DNA from: Eubacterium sp.
GTDB lineage: Bacteria > Bacillota > Clostridia > Lachnospirales > Lachnospiraceae
Length of the DNA: 38,647 nt
Assembly (NCBI GenBank): GCA_022767895.1
Contig: JALENH010000140.1
Coordinates: 1 to 38,647 of the forward strand
Direction of reading: 5' to 3'
The translations under genes were made by a program, and so were the position numbers. Below, piece by piece: positions 18,414 through 38,537 of the stretch (positions are counted from its first letter, which is position 1; each line of letters opens with the position of its first letter). Below the pieces are notes generated by a model. It worked only from the letters and a program-made list of their open reading frames with translations, was not told where the DNA came from and did not search any database.

Positions 18414-19190
18414 CTACTGCAAATGATTCTTCATCAGATTCAGTGCATTCTTTTCCAGTCTTGAAACCTGTGCCTGGGAAATATGGATTTCCTCTGCGAC
18501 CTCCATTTGGGTTTTGCCCTCGAAATAGCGAAGCTTGATAATGTTATTTTCCCGTTCAGGCAGGTGGTCCAGGGCATCCTTCAAGGAGAGATGTTCTACC
18601 CAACTTGATTCCTTGTTCTTTTTGTCGCTGATTTGATCCATGATATACAGTGTGTCACCACCTTCGGAATAAACAGGCTCATAGAGGGAGACCGGGCTTT
18701 GGATAGCATCCAGAGCGAAGGCAATATCCTCGGGAGAGACATCGATCACTTTTGAGATATCCTCAAGGGTAGGCTCTGTTTCCTGCTTTTTCATTAACGC
18801 CTCTTTTGCATAAATAGCTTTGTATGCTGTATCACGGAGTGAGCGGCTGACACGGATGGCATTGTTATCCCGAAGATAGCGGCGTACTTCGCCAATGATC
18901 ATGGGGACCGCATAGGTGGAAAATTTGACATCCTGTGTTACATCAAAATTATCGATGGCTTTGATGAGTCCGATGCAGCCAATCTGAAACAGATCATCGA
19001 TGTTTTCATTACTGTTATTAAAACGCTGGATAATGCTGAGAACCAGCCGGAGATTGCCACGAATATACTGTTCTCTTGCCTCTTTATCTCCATTTTTTAT
19101 CTTGTCAAAAAGTTCTTTTTTCTCATCATTGGAAAGGAGTGGGAGTTTGCTGGTGTTGATTCCACAGATTTCAACTTTGTAGTGTGCCAT
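18414..19190 (-). CDS. sigG: RNA polymerase forespore sigma factor SigG
   Basis: A 258-residue sigma-70 family protein (B. subtilis SigG is 260). The N-terminus KVEICGINTSKLPLLSNDEK is the hallmark of SigG, followed by region 2 (DDLFQIGCIGLIKAIDNFD, then KFSTYAVPMIIGEVRRYLRD), region 3, and region 4 with a helix-turn-helix (MEVAEEIHISQAQVSRLEKN). It directs late forespore gene expression during sporulation. SD AGGAGG (plus-strand 19199-19204) lies 8 bases before the start. A consensus SigF/SigG promoter lies upstream at 19234-19263. It is convergent with uxuB and divergent from the ylmC-like gene. In many clostridia sigG sits near ylmC and nrdR in one orientation; here it faces away from them. 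Confidence 0.96.
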   Translation of the reverse strand: MAHYKVEICGINTSKLPLLSNDEKKELFDKIKNGDKEAREQYIRGNLRLVLSIIQRFNNSNENIDDLFQIGCIGLIKAIDNFDVTQDVKFSTYAVPMIIGEVRRYLRDNNAIRVSRSLRDTAYKAIYAKEALMKKQETEPTLEDISKVIDVSPEDIAFALDAIQSPVSLYEPVYSEGGDTLYIMDQISDKKNKESSWVEHLSLKDALDHLPERENNIIKLRYFEGKTQMEVAEEIHISQAQVSRLEKNALNLMKNHLQ

Positions 19191-31959: not shown

Positions 31960-32409
31960 ATGGCAAAGTTTGTGTTTTCCATGCAGAATATTCTGAATAT
32001 GAAAGAAAAACTGGAAGATCAGGAAAAGAATAATTTTGCCCAGGCCAATCTTCGTCTTCAGGAGGCGGTTGCTGAACAGGAAGAACTGGAACAGCGACTT
32101 GCTGAAGCCAAGAAAAAGTTGCAGCAGGAGGTATCAGATGCACTGGATGTGAGGACAATTCGCAGCCGGGAGGATGCTGTGGAAATTCTTCGGATGTATG
32201 TCCGTCAGCAGATTCTTGTGGTGAAGCAGCGGGAAAAGGAAGTAGATGTGGCAAGGGAACATTTGAATGAAGCGATGAAGGAGCGAAAGACCTTTGAAAA
32301 ACTGCGGGAAAAAGCACTGGAGGCATTCCTGGCAGAGGAAAATTTGAGAGAACAAAAGGAAGTTGATGAGCTGGTGAGTTATCGTTACGGCGTTGACAGT
32401 CAGGAGTGA
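31960..32409 (+). CDS. fliJ: Flagellar export chaperone FliJ
   Basis: A 149-residue almost entirely coiled-coil protein rich in Glu, Lys, Gln and Ala. The N-terminus FVFSMQNILNMKEKLEDQEK is typical of FliJ, which sits in the FliI hexamer. Sequence conservation in the family is low, so the assignment rests on length, coiled coil and position directly after fliI. SD is GAGGAAGG, at the end of fliI. It ends just before the SD of the next gene. Confidence 0.92.
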   Translation: MAKFVFSMQNILNMKEKLEDQEKNNFAQANLRLQEAVAEQEELEQRLAEAKKKLQQEVSDALDVRTIRSREDAVEILRMYVRQQILVVKQREKEVDVAREHLNEAMKERKTFEKLREKALEAFLAEENLREQKEVDELVSYRYGVDSQE

Positions 32410-32422
32410 AAGGAGATCAATT

Positions 32423-33181
32423 ATGGCAAAAAAGGATAATAAGGATGAACAGGAAGTAAAAAATGACGAGAGTGCCGGTGGCAAGTTTATCACGATTTTG
32501 ATTGTGTTGGTGATAGTGATTATTTGGCTGGCTATTTTTGGTGTATTGATTAAACTGGATGTGGGGAATTTTGGAAGCGAAGTACTATATCCGGTACTGA
32601 AAGATGTACCAGTTGTCAATATGATTCTTCCGACTCCAGCGGAGAAGGAGGATGGAGAGGAAAAAGAGTATGATAATCTGGCAGAGGCCAATGCCCGAAT
32701 TAAGGAGCTGGAGAGTCAGTTGGCTGCCAGCAAAAATGCAGGCTCTGCCAACAGCAGTGAGGTGGAGGAACTGCAGGCAGAGGTTAACCGGCTGAAGAAG
32801 TTTGAGGAAGCTCAGAGTTCCTTTGCAAAACGGGTACAGGAATTTGATGAAAATGTCGTATACAATGACAAGGCACCGGATACGGAAGAATATAAGACAT
32901 ATTATGAGGGGATCGAGCCGGATAATGCAGAAAAAATCTATAAAGAAGTTTGTCAGGATTATGAATATTCCCAGGAAATCAAAGACCAGGCAGATACCTA
33001 TGGAAAAATGGAACCGGCCAGTGCAGCAGCAATTTTGTCTGAGATGACCAATGATCTCAGTCTGGTGGCGAAAATCCTTGACAGCATGCAGCCGTCAAAG
33101 AGTGCCCTGATTCTTCAAAACATGACACCGACTACAGCGGCCCAGGTGACGACAAAGATGACATCCATGAAAAAGAAATAG
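32423..33181 (+). CDS. MotE/YlxF-like flagellar membrane protein
   Basis: A 252-residue protein with a charged cytoplasmic N-terminus, one transmembrane helix (residues about 22-43, FITILIVLVIVIIWLAIFGV), a coiled coil (residues about 90-130) and a C-terminal MgtE_N-like helical repeat domain (KMEPASAAAILSEMTND, then ILDSMQPSKSALILQNM). This matches YlxF of B. subtilis, which lies between fliJ and fliK, and resembles MotE, a flagellar chaperone. Specific function in this lineage is unproven. The ATG at 32423 follows AAAGGAGAT at 32409-32417; a start upstream of that SD would overlap fliJ. Confidence 0.85.
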   Translation: MAKKDNKDEQEVKNDESAGGKFITILIVLVIVIIWLAIFGVLIKLDVGNFGSEVLYPVLKDVPVVNMILPTPAEKEDGEEKEYDNLAEANARIKELESQLAASKNAGSANSSEVEELQAEVNRLKKFEEAQSSFAKRVQEFDENVVYNDKAPDTEEYKTYYEGIEPDNAEKIYKEVCQDYEYSQEIKDQADTYGKMEPASAAAILSEMTNDLSLVAKILDSMQPSKSALILQNMTPTTAAQVTTKMTSMKKK

Positions 33182-33193
33182 AAGACTATAAAC

Positions 33194-33221
33194 TAAAGAA
33201 AGCAATATGGTCTGCCGATAT
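33194..33221 (+). promoter_or_regulatory. Sigma-D (FliA)-type promoter upstream of fliK
   Basis: TAAA at 33194-33197, preceded by C, is followed after 16 bases by GCCGATAT at 33214-33221, an exact match to the sigma-D/FliA -10 element. The usual form is TAAA, 14-16 bases, GCCGATAT. It lies between the stop of the MotE-like gene and the fliK start, with transcription expected near 33230, ahead of SD AAAGGAGGG. Flagellar sigma use is known from the family; activity here is inferred. Confidence 0.65.
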
Positions 33222-33262
33222 ATATTTCGTAGATGATTTTTAAGAAGAAAGGAGGGAAGAGA

Positions 33263-34666
33263 ATGACAATGCAGGGAATAGCCCGGATTACAACAAAGGC
33301 GGGCAGCATTACACCGGAGCGGAGTACAAAAGCAGGAGATACAGTTTTTGAAACCTTTATGAACAAACAGGCAGTACAGGTTTCAGGAAAATCAGGCAAC
33401 GCAGATGCTAATTCTAATATTTCCAACAGGAGCAAAGGTTTATCAGCTAATCGCTATAACAAAGATAATAGTGTAAGCGCCAACAACGATTCCACGAGAT
33501 TGAAGGTGAAGGAACCCACATCTACCAATCAGTCACCGGAAGAATGTGGAACGGATTTGAAAGAAGTTTCGGAAATCGTTGCGCAGACTATGGTGATCCT
33601 TCAGGAAATATTCGGTCTATCTGAAATGGAACTGCAGGATATCATGAACCAGTTCTCGATGGAACCTCAGGATTTGCTTTTGCAAATGGAAGGGGACCGG
33701 ATGGTGCCGGTCAATACTGCTGCTATTCAGGAATTAATTCTTGGAATCCATGGAGTTGATGATACGGCGTCTTTTCTTACGAATGACACGCTGAATCAGG
33801 AACTTACGGCTGTGACGGAACAGATAACCGAGCTTCTTGCGGAGAGTTTCGGCGTGAGTGAGGCAGAACTTGCGAAAGTGGAAACGTCATTTCTTTCAGA
33901 ACTCGCAGGACAGCTTGAAAAGGTGACAGAGATGACAGGATTGGTAGATTCTTCCACGATGCAGATGGAGAATCAAATGGTATCGGAAGAAGATGTAACC
34001 CAGGCACAACAGGTAGAAGAGCCGTTGACTGTTGTATTTGAAACTCAGGAAGATGCGGGAGACGGAGATGGTGGAAACGAACAGATGATGACGGATCATC
34101 AGCCGGCTTCGCAGGGGACACAGGACATTTCTCCGCAGACACAGGCTACAACAGTGGAAGTTTTCAAGGAGAACCTGGTACAGGCATTTGAGGAAGTTCG
34201 TGGCACAGAAGGAACATCTGCTGAAAGCGTAATGAATCAGATTGTGGAACAGGTGGTACATCATGTAAGGGTTCGTGTCATGCCTGAGACAACCAGCATG
34301 GAACTTCAACTAAATCCGGCAAGTTTGGGACGTGTTAATCTTACTGTTGCCACTACCGCCGGAGCTGCAACGGCAACACTTGTTGTTGAGAATCAGATGG
34401 CAAAAGAAGCACTGGAAAGTCAGATGATTCAATTGAAAGAAACATTTGCTGAGCAGGGATTGAAAGTAGATGCGGTGGAGGTTACTGTGGCGGAATTCGG
34501 ATTGAAAAAAGAGAATGAACAGCAGGATGAGCCATCTGGTGGCGGAAGACAGAATCGGAGATCTCATTCTGGTGACAGGACCGTAAAAGAAGAGGAAAGC
34601 GTGGCAGACAATGTTACCGCCCCGGACCGGAGAGATGCGGAGAGTACGGTGGATTACACCGCATAA
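33263..34666 (+). CDS. fliK: Flagellar hook-length control protein FliK
   Basis: A 467-residue exported ruler/switch protein. The N-terminal two-thirds is polar and low in conservation, rich in Gln, Glu, Ser and Thr. The C-terminal Flg_hook domain is clear at residues about 330-415 (VHHVRVRVMPETTSMELQLN, PASLGRVNLTVATTAG, LVVENQMAKEALESQMIQLK, LKVDAVEVTV). A disordered charged tail follows (QQDEPSGGGRQNRRSHSGDR). The start at 33263 follows AAAGGAGGG. A sigma-D-type promoter lies directly upstream, suggesting it can be raised separately from the rest of the operon. flgD follows after 27 bases. Confidence 0.92.
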   Translation: MTMQGIARITTKAGSITPERSTKAGDTVFETFMNKQAVQVSGKSGNADANSNISNRSKGLSANRYNKDNSVSANNDSTRLKVKEPTSTNQSPEECGTDLKEVSEIVAQTMVILQEIFGLSEMELQDIMNQFSMEPQDLLLQMEGDRMVPVNTAAIQELILGIHGVDDTASFLTNDTLNQELTAVTEQITELLAESFGVSEAELAKVETSFLSELAGQLEKVTEMTGLVDSSTMQMENQMVSEEDVTQAQQVEEPLTVVFETQEDAGDGDGGNEQMMTDHQPASQGTQDISPQTQATTVEVFKENLVQAFEEVRGTEGTSAESVMNQIVEQVVHHVRVRVMPETTSMELQLNPASLGRVNLTVATTAGAATATLVVENQMAKEALESQMIQLKETFAEQGLKVDAVEVTVAEFGLKKENEQQDEPSGGGRQNRRSHSGDRTVKEEESVADNVTAPDRRDAESTVDYTA

Positions 34667-34693: not shown

Positions 34694-35509
34694 ATGGCGG
34701 TAAGCAGTACAGGCAATTTGACAACTGCAGTAGAAGATCTTACTGTGGGCAGTACGGAGCGTAAAGTCAATCAAAGAGGCTCCAGCGAACTGGGAAAAGA
34801 AGAGTTTTTAAAGCTTTTAGTAACTCAGCTTCAGAATCAGGATCCATTGAATCCTCAGAATGACACAGAATTTATTTCCCAGCTGGCACAGTTCTCGTCC
34901 TTGGAGCAGATGACCAACATGAGCGCAACGATGTCCAATACATCGGCCTATAGTCTGGTTGGCAAAGAAGTGATTGTACAGACGAAGGATTCCACAGGAG
35001 CTTACAAAGAAGTTCGTGGTACCGTGGATTATGTGGAAATGAAAAACGGAGATGCCATGTTAGCAATTAATGGACAGACCTACAGTCTCGATGATTTGGT
35101 TCAGGTTATGGACAGTATGTATGCCATCAAGGAGTATTTGCCTTCGGTACAGGAACAGACAGAGACCTTTGACAAGACCAATCCGGCGTTGATAACAGTG
35201 AAGATTGATCTGGGAAGCAAAGGGTATGAGGCGAGTAGTGTTGCAGTTGCTTTGAATGGAGAATATATCGATAAAGAGTTTCTTAACTACAACGACGGGG
35301 AACTGACAATATCTCCAGAGGCTTTCAAAGATCTGGAACCGGGAAGTTATTATCTTGGCTTCTACTTTGATGATCCATTCCAGACATCGGTAACGGATAA
35401 AGTTAATATCAAGATTATTGACAGTGGCATTGTGAAAGATGATTCGGAGCAGAATGTCGAAGAAGGGAATAGCACTTCCACGGAGGAAACCAGCACGGAC
35501 AATGCATGA
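34694..35509 (+). CDS. flgD: Flagellar hook assembly (cap) protein FlgD
   Basis: A 271-residue hook scaffold. The conserved N-terminal region [20 protein letters not shown] then [20 protein letters not shown] is diagnostic. It is followed by the FlgD Tudor-like/FlgD_ig region ([20 protein letters not shown]) and an unusual extended C-terminus that includes a beta-rich segment (about 155-245) and a Ser/Thr/Glu-rich tail. SD AAAGGAAG lies upstream. It fits its place between fliK and flgE. Confidence 0.95.
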
Positions 35510-35526
35510 CAAGGAGGTCGGGAATT

Positions 35527-35883
35527 ATGAATGTAACGAAAAATTTTACATCCATTGAGCAGATTCGTGGCCAGATAAAAAACCGGGAGCCGGAACGAAA
35601 AGCCGGAACACGGACAGAAGATGTACCAAGCTTTGACGAAATCCTTTTTTCCAAACATGCCTCAAGAAGACTGGAGACAAGACAAATTGATATGTCGGAT
35701 GAACAACGGGCAAGGTTGCAGGATGCAACAAGTCAGGCAAGGGAAAAAGGAATGAAAGAGTCACTTGTGATGGTAGACAATCTGGCATTTATTGTCAATG
35801 TAAAAAGCAACACCGTGATTACCGCTGTAAATGATACAAAGAATGCGGTGTTTACAAACATTGATGGAGCAATCATTAACTAG
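35527..35883 (+). CDS. Small conserved flagellar operon protein (TIGR02530 type)
   Basis: A 118-residue soluble protein with the pattern SFDEILFSKHASRRLETRQI, DMSDEQRARLQDATSQAREK and SLVMVDNLAFIVNVKSNTVI. I recognise this as the TIGR02530 'flagellar operon protein' found between flgD and flgE in many clostridia and other Gram-positives. It has no signal peptide or membrane helix. Its role is not known to me; an export or hook-assembly helper is plausible from position. The ATG at 35527 follows AAGGAGG and begins 17 bases after flgD. Confidence 0.85.
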   Translation: MNVTKNFTSIEQIRGQIKNREPERKAGTRTEDVPSFDEILFSKHASRRLETRQIDMSDEQRARLQDATSQAREKGMKESLVMVDNLAFIVNVKSNTVITAVNDTKNAVFTNIDGAIIN

Positions 35884-35981: not shown

Positions 35982-37427
35982 ATGATGAGATCATTGTATT
36001 CCGGAGTTTCCGGATTAAAAGTACATCAGACCAAGATGGACGTTATCGGTAACAATATTTCTAATGTAAACACAGTTGGTTTTCGTGCCAGCTCCGTAAA
36101 CTTTACGGATGTGTTTTACCAGACGACACAGAATGCGTCCGGTCCCAATGCCAATACCGGTACGGCCGGAACCAATGCCGTGCAGATTGGTCTTGGATCT
36201 AATGTGGCATCAATCAGTGTAGATTTGAGCGGTACAGGTGCAACACAGCGTACAGACCGTGGTATGGATATCATGATCAATGGTGATGCTTTTCTGATTG
36301 TTAAAAGTAATGGCAATACCTATTTTACCAAATCAGGAGCACTGGATATTGATGCAAACGGTACTTTGTATTGCACCACCAACGGAGCATCGGTGCTTGG
36401 CTGGGGCGTAGATGAAGATGGAGAAATTCGTAAAGATACAGCTGCTACTCTGAATCTGATGGGCGGTGAGAATGCGTATTCAGACCCGAATGCCACGACG
36501 GATGTTTCTCTTTCCGGTAATGTGGATCAGAAGGATCCTCTTGTGGCGTACAGTGCAGATGGAGCCGGATATCCGATGGCTGTCAGTTTTTATGACAATC
36601 TGGGTAATTTGTGTACGGCAAAATACAGTATTATCCAGACCAGTGCAGATTCCACCAATACATACAGCGTCCGTCTTCATGACATTCTGGGGGCAGATGG
36701 TAAATCCATTTTGAAAAGAAAGGATGAGGCGTCGGGAGACTATGTTTCCACTGAGCAGCCTATTAATTTTAACGAACTGGATTTGGGTGGAACCAATTAT
36801 ACAGTGGATGCCAGCAGTGGTGACATTAGTTTTGGCGATGCTGTGGACTGGCCGATACTCACATTTAATTCTGTAACAGGTGCGTTCACCAGCGTGAGCA
36901 GTGATAACGGAGAGGCTTTGAATCTGAATCTCAGTGCAGATAACAATCCTTATCCAACCAGTGGTGTAGATATTGATTTTTCTGATTTGACCATGTATGC
37001 CAGTGATAAAACCTGTAAAGTTAAACCAAGCCGCGGTGGCGCGAATGGCGATGGGGCAGGAAATGCAGCAGGAACATTAAATGGTTTCTCGATTCAGACT
37101 GACGGTATGATATATGGTGTATATAGCAATGGTGATAAAAAACTGTTAGGACAGATTGCTGTGGCAACATTTGCCAACCCATCCGGCTTGGAGTCCGTTG
37201 GTAACAGTATGTATGCCGCTACTCTGAACTCTGGTGATTTTGATGGTATTGGTATAGATATTACGGAAGTGGGTAAGTTCTCAGTTGGCGCGTTGGAAAT
37301 GTCGGATGTCGATTTGGCAAATGAATTTACCAGTATGATTACAACACAGCGTGGTTTTCAGGCAAATTCACGAGTGATTACAACTTCTGATACGATGTTG
37401 GAAGAATTAATTAACTTGAAACGATAA
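35982..37427 (+). CDS. flgE: Flagellar hook protein FlgE
   Basis: A 481-residue hook subunit. The N-terminal motif SLYSGVSGLKVHQTKMDVIG then NNISNVNTVGFRASSVNF and the C-terminal NEFTSMITTQRGFQANSRVI then TTSDTMLEELINLKR are the coiled-coil D0 parts shared by hook proteins. The central region is long and carries FlgE D1/D2 features (FDNRGMDIMINGDAFL-like RGMDIMINGDAFLIV; KDTAATLNLMGGENA). SD GGAGGGTGA is strong. The 98-base gap before it holds no clear promoter. A 93-base structured gap follows before flbD. Confidence 0.96.
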   Translation: MMRSLYSGVSGLKVHQTKMDVIGNNISNVNTVGFRASSVNFTDVFYQTTQNASGPNANTGTAGTNAVQIGLGSNVASISVDLSGTGATQRTDRGMDIMINGDAFLIVKSNGNTYFTKSGALDIDANGTLYCTTNGASVLGWGVDEDGEIRKDTAATLNLMGGENAYSDPNATTDVSLSGNVDQKDPLVAYSADGAGYPMAVSFYDNLGNLCTAKYSIIQTSADSTNTYSVRLHDILGADGKSILKRKDEASGDYVSTEQPINFNELDLGGTNYTVDASSGDISFGDAVDWPILTFNSVTGAFTSVSSDNGEALNLNLSADNNPYPTSGVDIDFSDLTMYASDKTCKVKPSRGGANGDGAGNAAGTLNGFSIQTDGMIYGVYSNGDKKLLGQIAVATFANPSGLESVGNSMYAATLNSGDFDGIGIDITEVGKFSVGALEMSDVDLANEFTSMITTQRGFQANSRVITTSDTMLEELINLKR

Positions 37428-37439
37428 GTGGATAGCATA

Positions 37440-37492
37440 GTCCCGGTGTGCGGAATTTCTGTCACCGGGACGATTGTCTCAAATGACAGAAA
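37440..37492 (+). ncRNA. Candidate RNA pseudoknot or alternative hairpins between flgE and flbD
   Basis: Stem 1 pairs GTCCCGGTG (37440-37448) with CACCGGGAC (37463-37471), 9 bp perfect. A second perfect pairing joins TTTCTGTCA (37456-37464) with TGACAGAAA (37484-37492). The 5' arm of stem 2 lies in the loop of stem 1, so the two form an H-type pseudoknot (7-bp stem 2, loops of 7, 0 and 14 bases) or compete as alternatives. No strong U-run follows. The flbD SD begins 16 bases downstream. Confidence 0.5.
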
Positions 37493-37520
37493 ATTGTTTG
37501 TGTTCAGAAAGGAGATCCTC

Positions 37521-37709
37521 ATGATTGATGTAACAAGGATGAATGGTTCTGTACTCACAATAAATAATCATTTAATCGAATCGGTGGAAGAAACACCAGA
37601 TACGGTCATCACTTTGACCACTGGTAAAAAAATAATTGTAAAAGAAAGTAGACAAGAAGTAAAAAATTTAGTAAAATTGTATGAGAAAGAAATATCTTGT
37701 AACTTTTAA
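37521..37709 (+). CDS. flbD: Flagellar protein FlbD (SwrD-like)
   Basis: A 62-residue protein with the FlbD signature: IDVTRMNGSVLTINNHLIES, then VEETPDTVITLTTGKKIIVK. Homologues (SwrD in B. subtilis) raise flagellar motor power and are found after flgE. The ATG at 37521 follows AAAGGAGAT at 37508-37516; the frame is open further upstream, but that extension would cover the structured intergenic RNA and is not conserved. motA starts 12 bases later. Confidence 0.93.
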   Translation: MIDVTRMNGSVLTINNHLIESVEETPDTVITLTTGKKIIVKESRQEVKNLVKLYEKEISCNF

Positions 37710-37721
37710 GGTGGTGGCATT

Positions 37722-38537
37722 TTGGATTTAGCTACAATAATCGGACTCGTCGGCTGTGCGGGGGCCGTTTTTTATGGTATTGTTTCGGGAGACCAGGGAT
37801 TTGCTGCGTTGGGAAACTTCTGGGATTTGGCTTCTTTCCTGATCGTTGTTGTCGGATGCTTGATGTGTATGATGACGATGTCGGGGAATATTGGGGAGTT
37901 TGTGAATTCGCTGAAGTCTTTTTTACTGACGATAAAAGTGCAGGAATCCAATGAAGGCGAGACGATACATAAAATCATTGATCTGGCAAATGTGGCCAGA
38001 AAGGAAGGACTTCTGCAGTTGGAAGAGGCGGCAGGAGAAATTGATGATGATTTTCTAAAAAAAGGAATCATGTTGATTGTCGATGGAACGGATCAGGAAC
38101 TGGTATCCAGTATTCTGGAGACGGAACTTGACTGTATAGAGCAGCGACACAGCAAGATTTACAGCTTTTGGGACAACCTGGCTGCCATGGGTCCTGCTTG
38201 GGGTATGATTGGTACACTGATTGGTTTGATTAACATGCTGAAACTTTTGGATGATCCAAGTTCTATCGGACCGCAGATGGCGATTGCGTTGATTACGACA
38301 TTGTATGGTTCTTTGATTGCCAACTGGATTGCCATTCCGGTTGCTACCAAGCTTCGTGCAAAGAACCGGAAGGAGATTATGTTAAAGGAAGTTATCTGTG
38401 AGGGAATCCTTTCGATTCAGGCGGGTGAAAACCCTCGAGTTATTGAGGAAAAACTGAAATCTTTCCTTGCACCGGCTGATCGGGAAGCAGTCCTTGGCGA
38501 CGATAGCAAAGGCGGCGGACAAGGTGGTGACGCTTAA
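37722..38537 (+). CDS. motA: Flagellar motor stator protein MotA
   Basis: A 271-residue stator protein with four transmembrane helices. Helix 1 begins ATIIGLVGCAGAVFYGIV, and the conserved stator regions DNLAAMGPAWGMIGTLIGLI and IGPQMAIALITTLYGSLIAN are present near the C-terminal helices. The start is TTG at 37722, the only one consistent with AAGGTGGTGG at 37708-37717 and with MotA N-termini. Its C-terminus ends in a Gly-rich tail (GGGQGGDA). It overlaps motB by one base (TAATG), so stator subunits are co-translated. Whether the motor is H+- or Na+-driven cannot be told from this. Confidence 0.96.
   Translation: MDLATIIGLVGCAGAVFYGIVSGDQGFAALGNFWDLASFLIVVVGCLMCMMTMSGNIGEFVNSLKSFLLTIKVQESNEGETIHKIIDLANVARKEGLLQLEEAAGEIDDDFLKKGIMLIVDGTDQELVSSILETELDCIEQRHSKIYSFWDNLAAMGPAWGMIGTLIGLINMLKLLDDPSSIGPQMAIALITTLYGSLIANWIAIPVATKLRAKNRKEIMLKEVICEGILSIQAGENPRVIEEKLKSFLAPADREAVLGDDSKGGGQGGDA

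Follow-up and report, generated by a model that had tools for sequence, protein, structure and literature searches.

The window, the whole stretch of 38,647 nt of Lachnospiraceae DNA (Eubacterium sp.) that was analysed, carries the genes of a fla operon, all on the + strand, in the order topA-codY-flgB-flgC-fliE-fliF-fliG-fliH-fliI-fliJ-flgY-fliK-flgD-TIGR02530-flgE-flbD-motA. The gene for the sporulation sigma factor SigG shares the window with this operon (18414-19190, − strand). The features from flgY to the end of the operon segment are as follows.

32393-33181, + strand: flgY/ylxF-type gene, directly upstream of the gap, with an MgtE_N-like C-terminus and FlbB-like
33182-33262, + strand: non-coding gap, containing the predicted promoter, the 5' leader and the fliK ribosome-binding site
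33193-33198, + strand: putative −35 element CTAAAG (CTTAAG, TTAAG or CTAAAG in genus relatives)
33214-33221, + strand: putative −10 element GCCGATAT, whose CGATAT recurs unchanged in 28 of the 29 gaps of the genus
33229, + strand: predicted transcription start, placed by a conserved TG 7-8 nt past the −10 element
33250-33255, + strand: AGGAGG, ribosome-binding site of fliK, from the sequence
33263-34666, + strand: fliK, hook-length control (PF02120)
34694-35509, + strand: flgD, hook cap (PF03963)
35506-35883, + strand: TIGR02530 flagellar protein (TIGR02530)
35982-37427, + strand: flgE-type hook protein (profile match)
37428-37709, + strand: flbD/swrD (PF06289)
37722-38537, + strand: motA, stator, the final gene of the contig (PF01618)

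The open reading frame at 32393-33181 gave only weak matches to MgtE_N (PF03448) and to FlbB, and it was assigned as FlgY/YlxF because of its synteny, FlgY being mostly found next to fliJ and/or fliK (PMC13023049). A flgY gene was present in 37 of 39 genomes of the genus; tandem copies of flgY-type genes were seen in two genus genomes (G135:C75 and G142:C64).

Between the flgY stop codon and the fliK ATG (33263) lie 81 non-coding nucleotides (33182-33262), in which CTAAAG (33193-33198) is followed, after 15 nt, by GCCGATAT (33214-33221) on the + strand. An earlier, sequence-only reading had described CTAAA (33193-33197)-N16-GCCGATAT in a non-coding gap and proposed it as a sigma-D promoter, and the motif was found exactly as described. 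The site has the two boxes that define such a promoter, a TAAA −35 box and a CCGATAW −10 box about 15-16 nt apart, and the host genome has both the sigma factor (FliA/sigma-D, contig C191, TIGR02479, 262.9 bits, close to cheD) and the anti-sigma factor FlgM (contig C248).

The pattern TAAA-N14-18-GCCGATAW has a single match in the window and none in any of 100 shuffles; in the 2.58 Mb draft genome it has four, as does the reversed control pattern. Because the genome-wide count equals that of the control, an exact match is not significant by itself, and the rarity of the pattern was dropped as evidence; the argument rests instead on place and conservation. At the genome-wide rate, about 6 per 100,000 is the chance expectation for an 81-nt gap to hold the exact pattern. 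None of the other three exact matches in the genome, inspected at the level of open reading frames, precedes an obvious flagellar gene. The equal counts (4 vs 4) are what one would expect if the match to the sigma-D consensus had arisen by chance and had no function, and this explanation must be weighed against the comparisons that follow.

Promoters of flgM provided the reference for scoring. Of 120 Lachnospiraceae genomes, 64 were found to carry this gene; a two-box site lies upstream of it in 27 of the 31 loci examined, and a weight matrix was built from these 27 promoters, which were chosen by similarity to the known consensus; the matrix is therefore partly circular, and the controls are shuffles, other operon junctions and a count of CGATAT. 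With this matrix the window site scores 18.6 bits, as compared with 19.4 bits for the genome's own flgM promoter (TTAAAG-N14-TCCGATAA), and the runner-up position in the window reaches 12.5 bits. Markov shuffles of the window gave a maximum of 11.6 ± 1.8 bits per strand (highest 15.7, n = 30), and the fliK site is the only one in the window that clearly exceeds background by this measure. TAAA is separated from the 8-base −10 box by 15 nt in 26 of the 27 training sites, and the N16 of the fliK site is one base longer than this commonest flgM spacing. A published in silico consensus for Butyrivibrio fibrisolvens, TAAA-N16-17-MCGATAa, has its spacing measured to a shorter −10 box (PMC3720852).

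The flagellin operon of the genus is preceded by CTAAAG or TTAAAG with a CGAAAT-type −10 box, mostly at N16 like the fliK site. This box (L158-L177, upstream of a gene for a DUF6240 protein) is weaker than the CGATAT before fliK, and the leader that follows it carries a conserved GTGAGAGTGAAATCTATG without an obvious AGGAGG. DUF6240 proteins occur in 37 of 39 genus genomes. The one at G000:C250:1391-4264 (locus L096) has 957 aa, with a DUF6240 domain, a further DUF6240 stretch of weaker match and, at its C-terminus, a weak FliK-like domain. Its gene lies directly upstream of a flagellin gene and fliS; it is a second FliK-like protein, in a flagellin operon.

Conservation within the genus was assessed in 29 loci with a readable flgY-fliK gap, the window's own included. 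The site is kept before fliK in these close relatives, scoring at least 11.5 bits in 26 of 29 gaps as compared with 11 of 1000 shuffled gaps, and CGATAT is present, without variation, in 28 of 29 (1.2 expected in shuffles). The −35 box is retained as [CT]T[TA]AAG or TAAAG. A mismatch scan requiring TAAA had suggested that this box was lost in relatives, a result that we rejected, as TTAAG or CTTAAG stands in this place in most close relatives; boxes of the TAATG, TAAAG and TTAAG types can be taken as normal for the family because its flgM promoters show such variation (TAAAG, TAATG, TAAGG and TTAAT). Past the −10 box, a TG at 7-8 nt is also conserved, the G being present in 23 of 28 gaps and corresponding to G33229 in the window. 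The spacer and the upstream region are not conserved, and the length of the gap varies, with the site lying anywhere from an overlap with the flgY stop to about 65 nt beyond it and at variable distances from the fliK start. An invariant CGATAT, a −35 box and a TG amid otherwise unconserved sequence thus constitute the signature of a promoter rather than of a coding or leader constraint. The recurrence of CGATAT with a properly spaced −35 box in 28 of 29 gaps that differ in both length and sequence argues strongly against a functionless chance match, which we consider extremely improbable and, given conservation across the genus, refuted in practice.

An alternative is that the conserved element is something other than a promoter, such as a binding site for a regulator or a structured mRNA leader. 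A possible hairpin directly after the predicted start in some relatives (L018, L022 and L076, by eye) and the short conserved stretch past the −10 element are consistent with such an element. However, what is conserved is a pair of boxes with 15-16 nt between them, in agreement with flgM promoters across the family; the pair lies at varying distances from the flgY stop and from the start of fliK, and the gap in the window has no such hairpin, also by eye. An Rfam search for riboswitches or other known RNAs gave no match. We therefore regard a conserved non-promoter element as very unlikely. By eye, inverted repeats with the potential to fold into a hairpin were noted at or close to the predicted 5' end of the transcript in L018, L022, L076, L078 and L080, and not in the window.

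In the wider family, 80 Lachnospiraceae-type loci were surveyed at a threshold of at least 12 bits. A site was found at the flgY-fliK junction in 21 of 73 cases, as compared with 1.4% of random windows of equal length, and at each of fifteen other operon junctions in 0 to 7 cases. Among the junctions surveyed, enrichment is thus confined to the one before fliK, a second observation that a chance match does not explain. On a tree of FliG and FliI, all six rows in the clade of the window have the site, and several further clades have it too, but it is missing from all 22 rows of the Roseburia/Pseudobutyrivibrio/Agathobacter clade, and its presence and absence require at least eight changes of state. 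Conservation before fliK in Roseburia and Butyrivibrio-type genera, which the sequence-only reading had put forward as a check, consequently failed in that clade (0/22). Because many Lachnospiraceae, including Roseburia and Pseudobutyrivibrio, lack the site, it is not essential to the design of the operon; it precedes the same gene throughout most of the genus and is patchy in the family. Some lineages that lack it at flgY-fliK have a good site elsewhere, near codY-flgB (L046 and L058) or after flgD (L046 and L088). Strong sigma-D-type sites (20-22 bits) were recorded elsewhere in the fla operon at L046:14007, L058:3850 and L088:14069.

Sequence, position and conservation across the genus all lend strong support to the proposal that a sigma-D promoter precedes fliK. 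We hold with high confidence that the site is such a promoter, placed inside the main fla operon, at which transcription would restart near G33229 to give an added transcript over fliK-motA and probably on to fliA. A start near 33230 had been anticipated, and the predicted position, at the conserved G33229, agrees with it. This start, the dependence on sigma-D and the length of the transcript are all inferred from sequence. A boost of fliK, flgD, flgE and motA, also part of the sequence-only reading, fits the uninterrupted gene order.

How far such a transcript would extend depends on the region beyond the window. The contig stops after motA, and linkage to fliA in the host genome is inferred from genus relatives, of which three (L015, L020 and L022) have fliA about 22-23 kb downstream of fliK on the same strand. 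From the motA region to fliA, these three relatives are 96-98% coding on the operon strand, with no gap between open reading frames above about 160 nt; in two of them no other sigma-D site occurs in this interval, and the remaining one has two borderline sites there. Predicted sigma-70 sites and terminators within the operon showed no excess over shuffles. One study places fliA at the end of the flgB-fliA locus in the Lachnospiraceae species that it covered (PMC3720852). With fliA downstream in this orientation, feedback of the promoter on sigma-D itself is probable; this likely main consequence was absent from the sequence-only reading. The promoter could, however, be genuine and act only at short range, on the hook genes and motA, with no contribution to fliA. 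The 22-23 kb that separate the site from fliA are consistent with this, as is the finding in Bacillus subtilis that position in the long operon matters for expression (Cozy and Kearns 2010, as cited in PMC3865298). The uninterrupted, unidirectional coding in the three relatives, together with the effect on sigD ascribed to the PylxF3 promoter of B. subtilis in the same paper, argues against it, and we consider a short-range promoter possible but rather unlikely.

The probable role of the promoter can be placed within the order of flagellar assembly. In the Salmonella system, FlgM holds sigma-D until FlgM is exported through the finished hook-basal body. With sigma-D so held, a promoter ahead of the hook genes would be of no help in building the first hook, except through leakage. 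In the early phase, the upstream promoter would transcribe the whole operon. Once sigma-D is freed from FlgM, RNA polymerase carrying it would initiate near G33229, and this second transcript would cover fliK-flgD-TIGR02530-flgE-flbD-motA and probably the remaining operon genes as far as fliA. The promoter would thereby serve as reinforcement, topping up the hook, hook-length and stator genes for further flagella once some are complete, and transcription of fliA would raise sigma-D by positive feedback.

A second, late promoter within an early operon would then act on hook-length control, the hook and the stator, and probably on sigma-D as well. The hosts are gut and rumen Lachnospiraceae, mostly uncultured, and comparing genera that have the site with related ones that lack it offers a natural way to ask about its role in flagellar number and in the on/off decision for motility. 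We give about even odds to a view of this promoter as a movable component that recurs in the fla operon of Lachnospiraceae. Whole genera would have retained it ahead of fliK, the Roseburia/Pseudobutyrivibrio/Agathobacter clade would have lost it, and some lineages would have it at codY-flgB or flgD-TIGR02530 instead; it would set how strongly the genes for hook, stator and sigma-D are held in the on state after the first flagella are complete.

In Lachnospiraceae, the sigma-28 promoters of flgM and of flagellin genes share the two boxes with the fliK site at nearly equal spacing (PMC3720852), but they head late operons of their own, whereas the fliK site lies inside an early one. In the long early flagellar operon of Clostridioides difficile, internal sigma-D promoters have likewise been predicted, upstream of motA and fliQ (PMC3865298, Table 3). 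Those sites differ in lying at other junctions and in being weak matches, and a site before motA was found in 0 of 43 cases in Lachnospiraceae. The known precedent is the fla/che operon of B. subtilis, for which PMC3865298 describes two internal SigD promoters, one of them, PylxF3, partly governing the expression of sigD. PylxF3 and, as proposed, the fliK site are both internal SigD promoters in a homologous operon, upstream of sigD/fliA on the same strand, an arrangement that the genus relatives display. PylxF3 is named for ylxF (= flgY, which adjoins fliK), and the Lachnospiraceae site occupies the gap after flgY, directly before fliK. Unlike fla/che, the operon here also includes motA. The distribution of the site across Lachnospiraceae is patchy, and sites preceding fliK may have arisen repeatedly rather than sharing ancestry with the one in B. 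subtilis. The general idea of an internal SigD promoter was already established in B. subtilis, and we conclude that the fliK site is very probably a real, new and well-conserved instance of this known kind.
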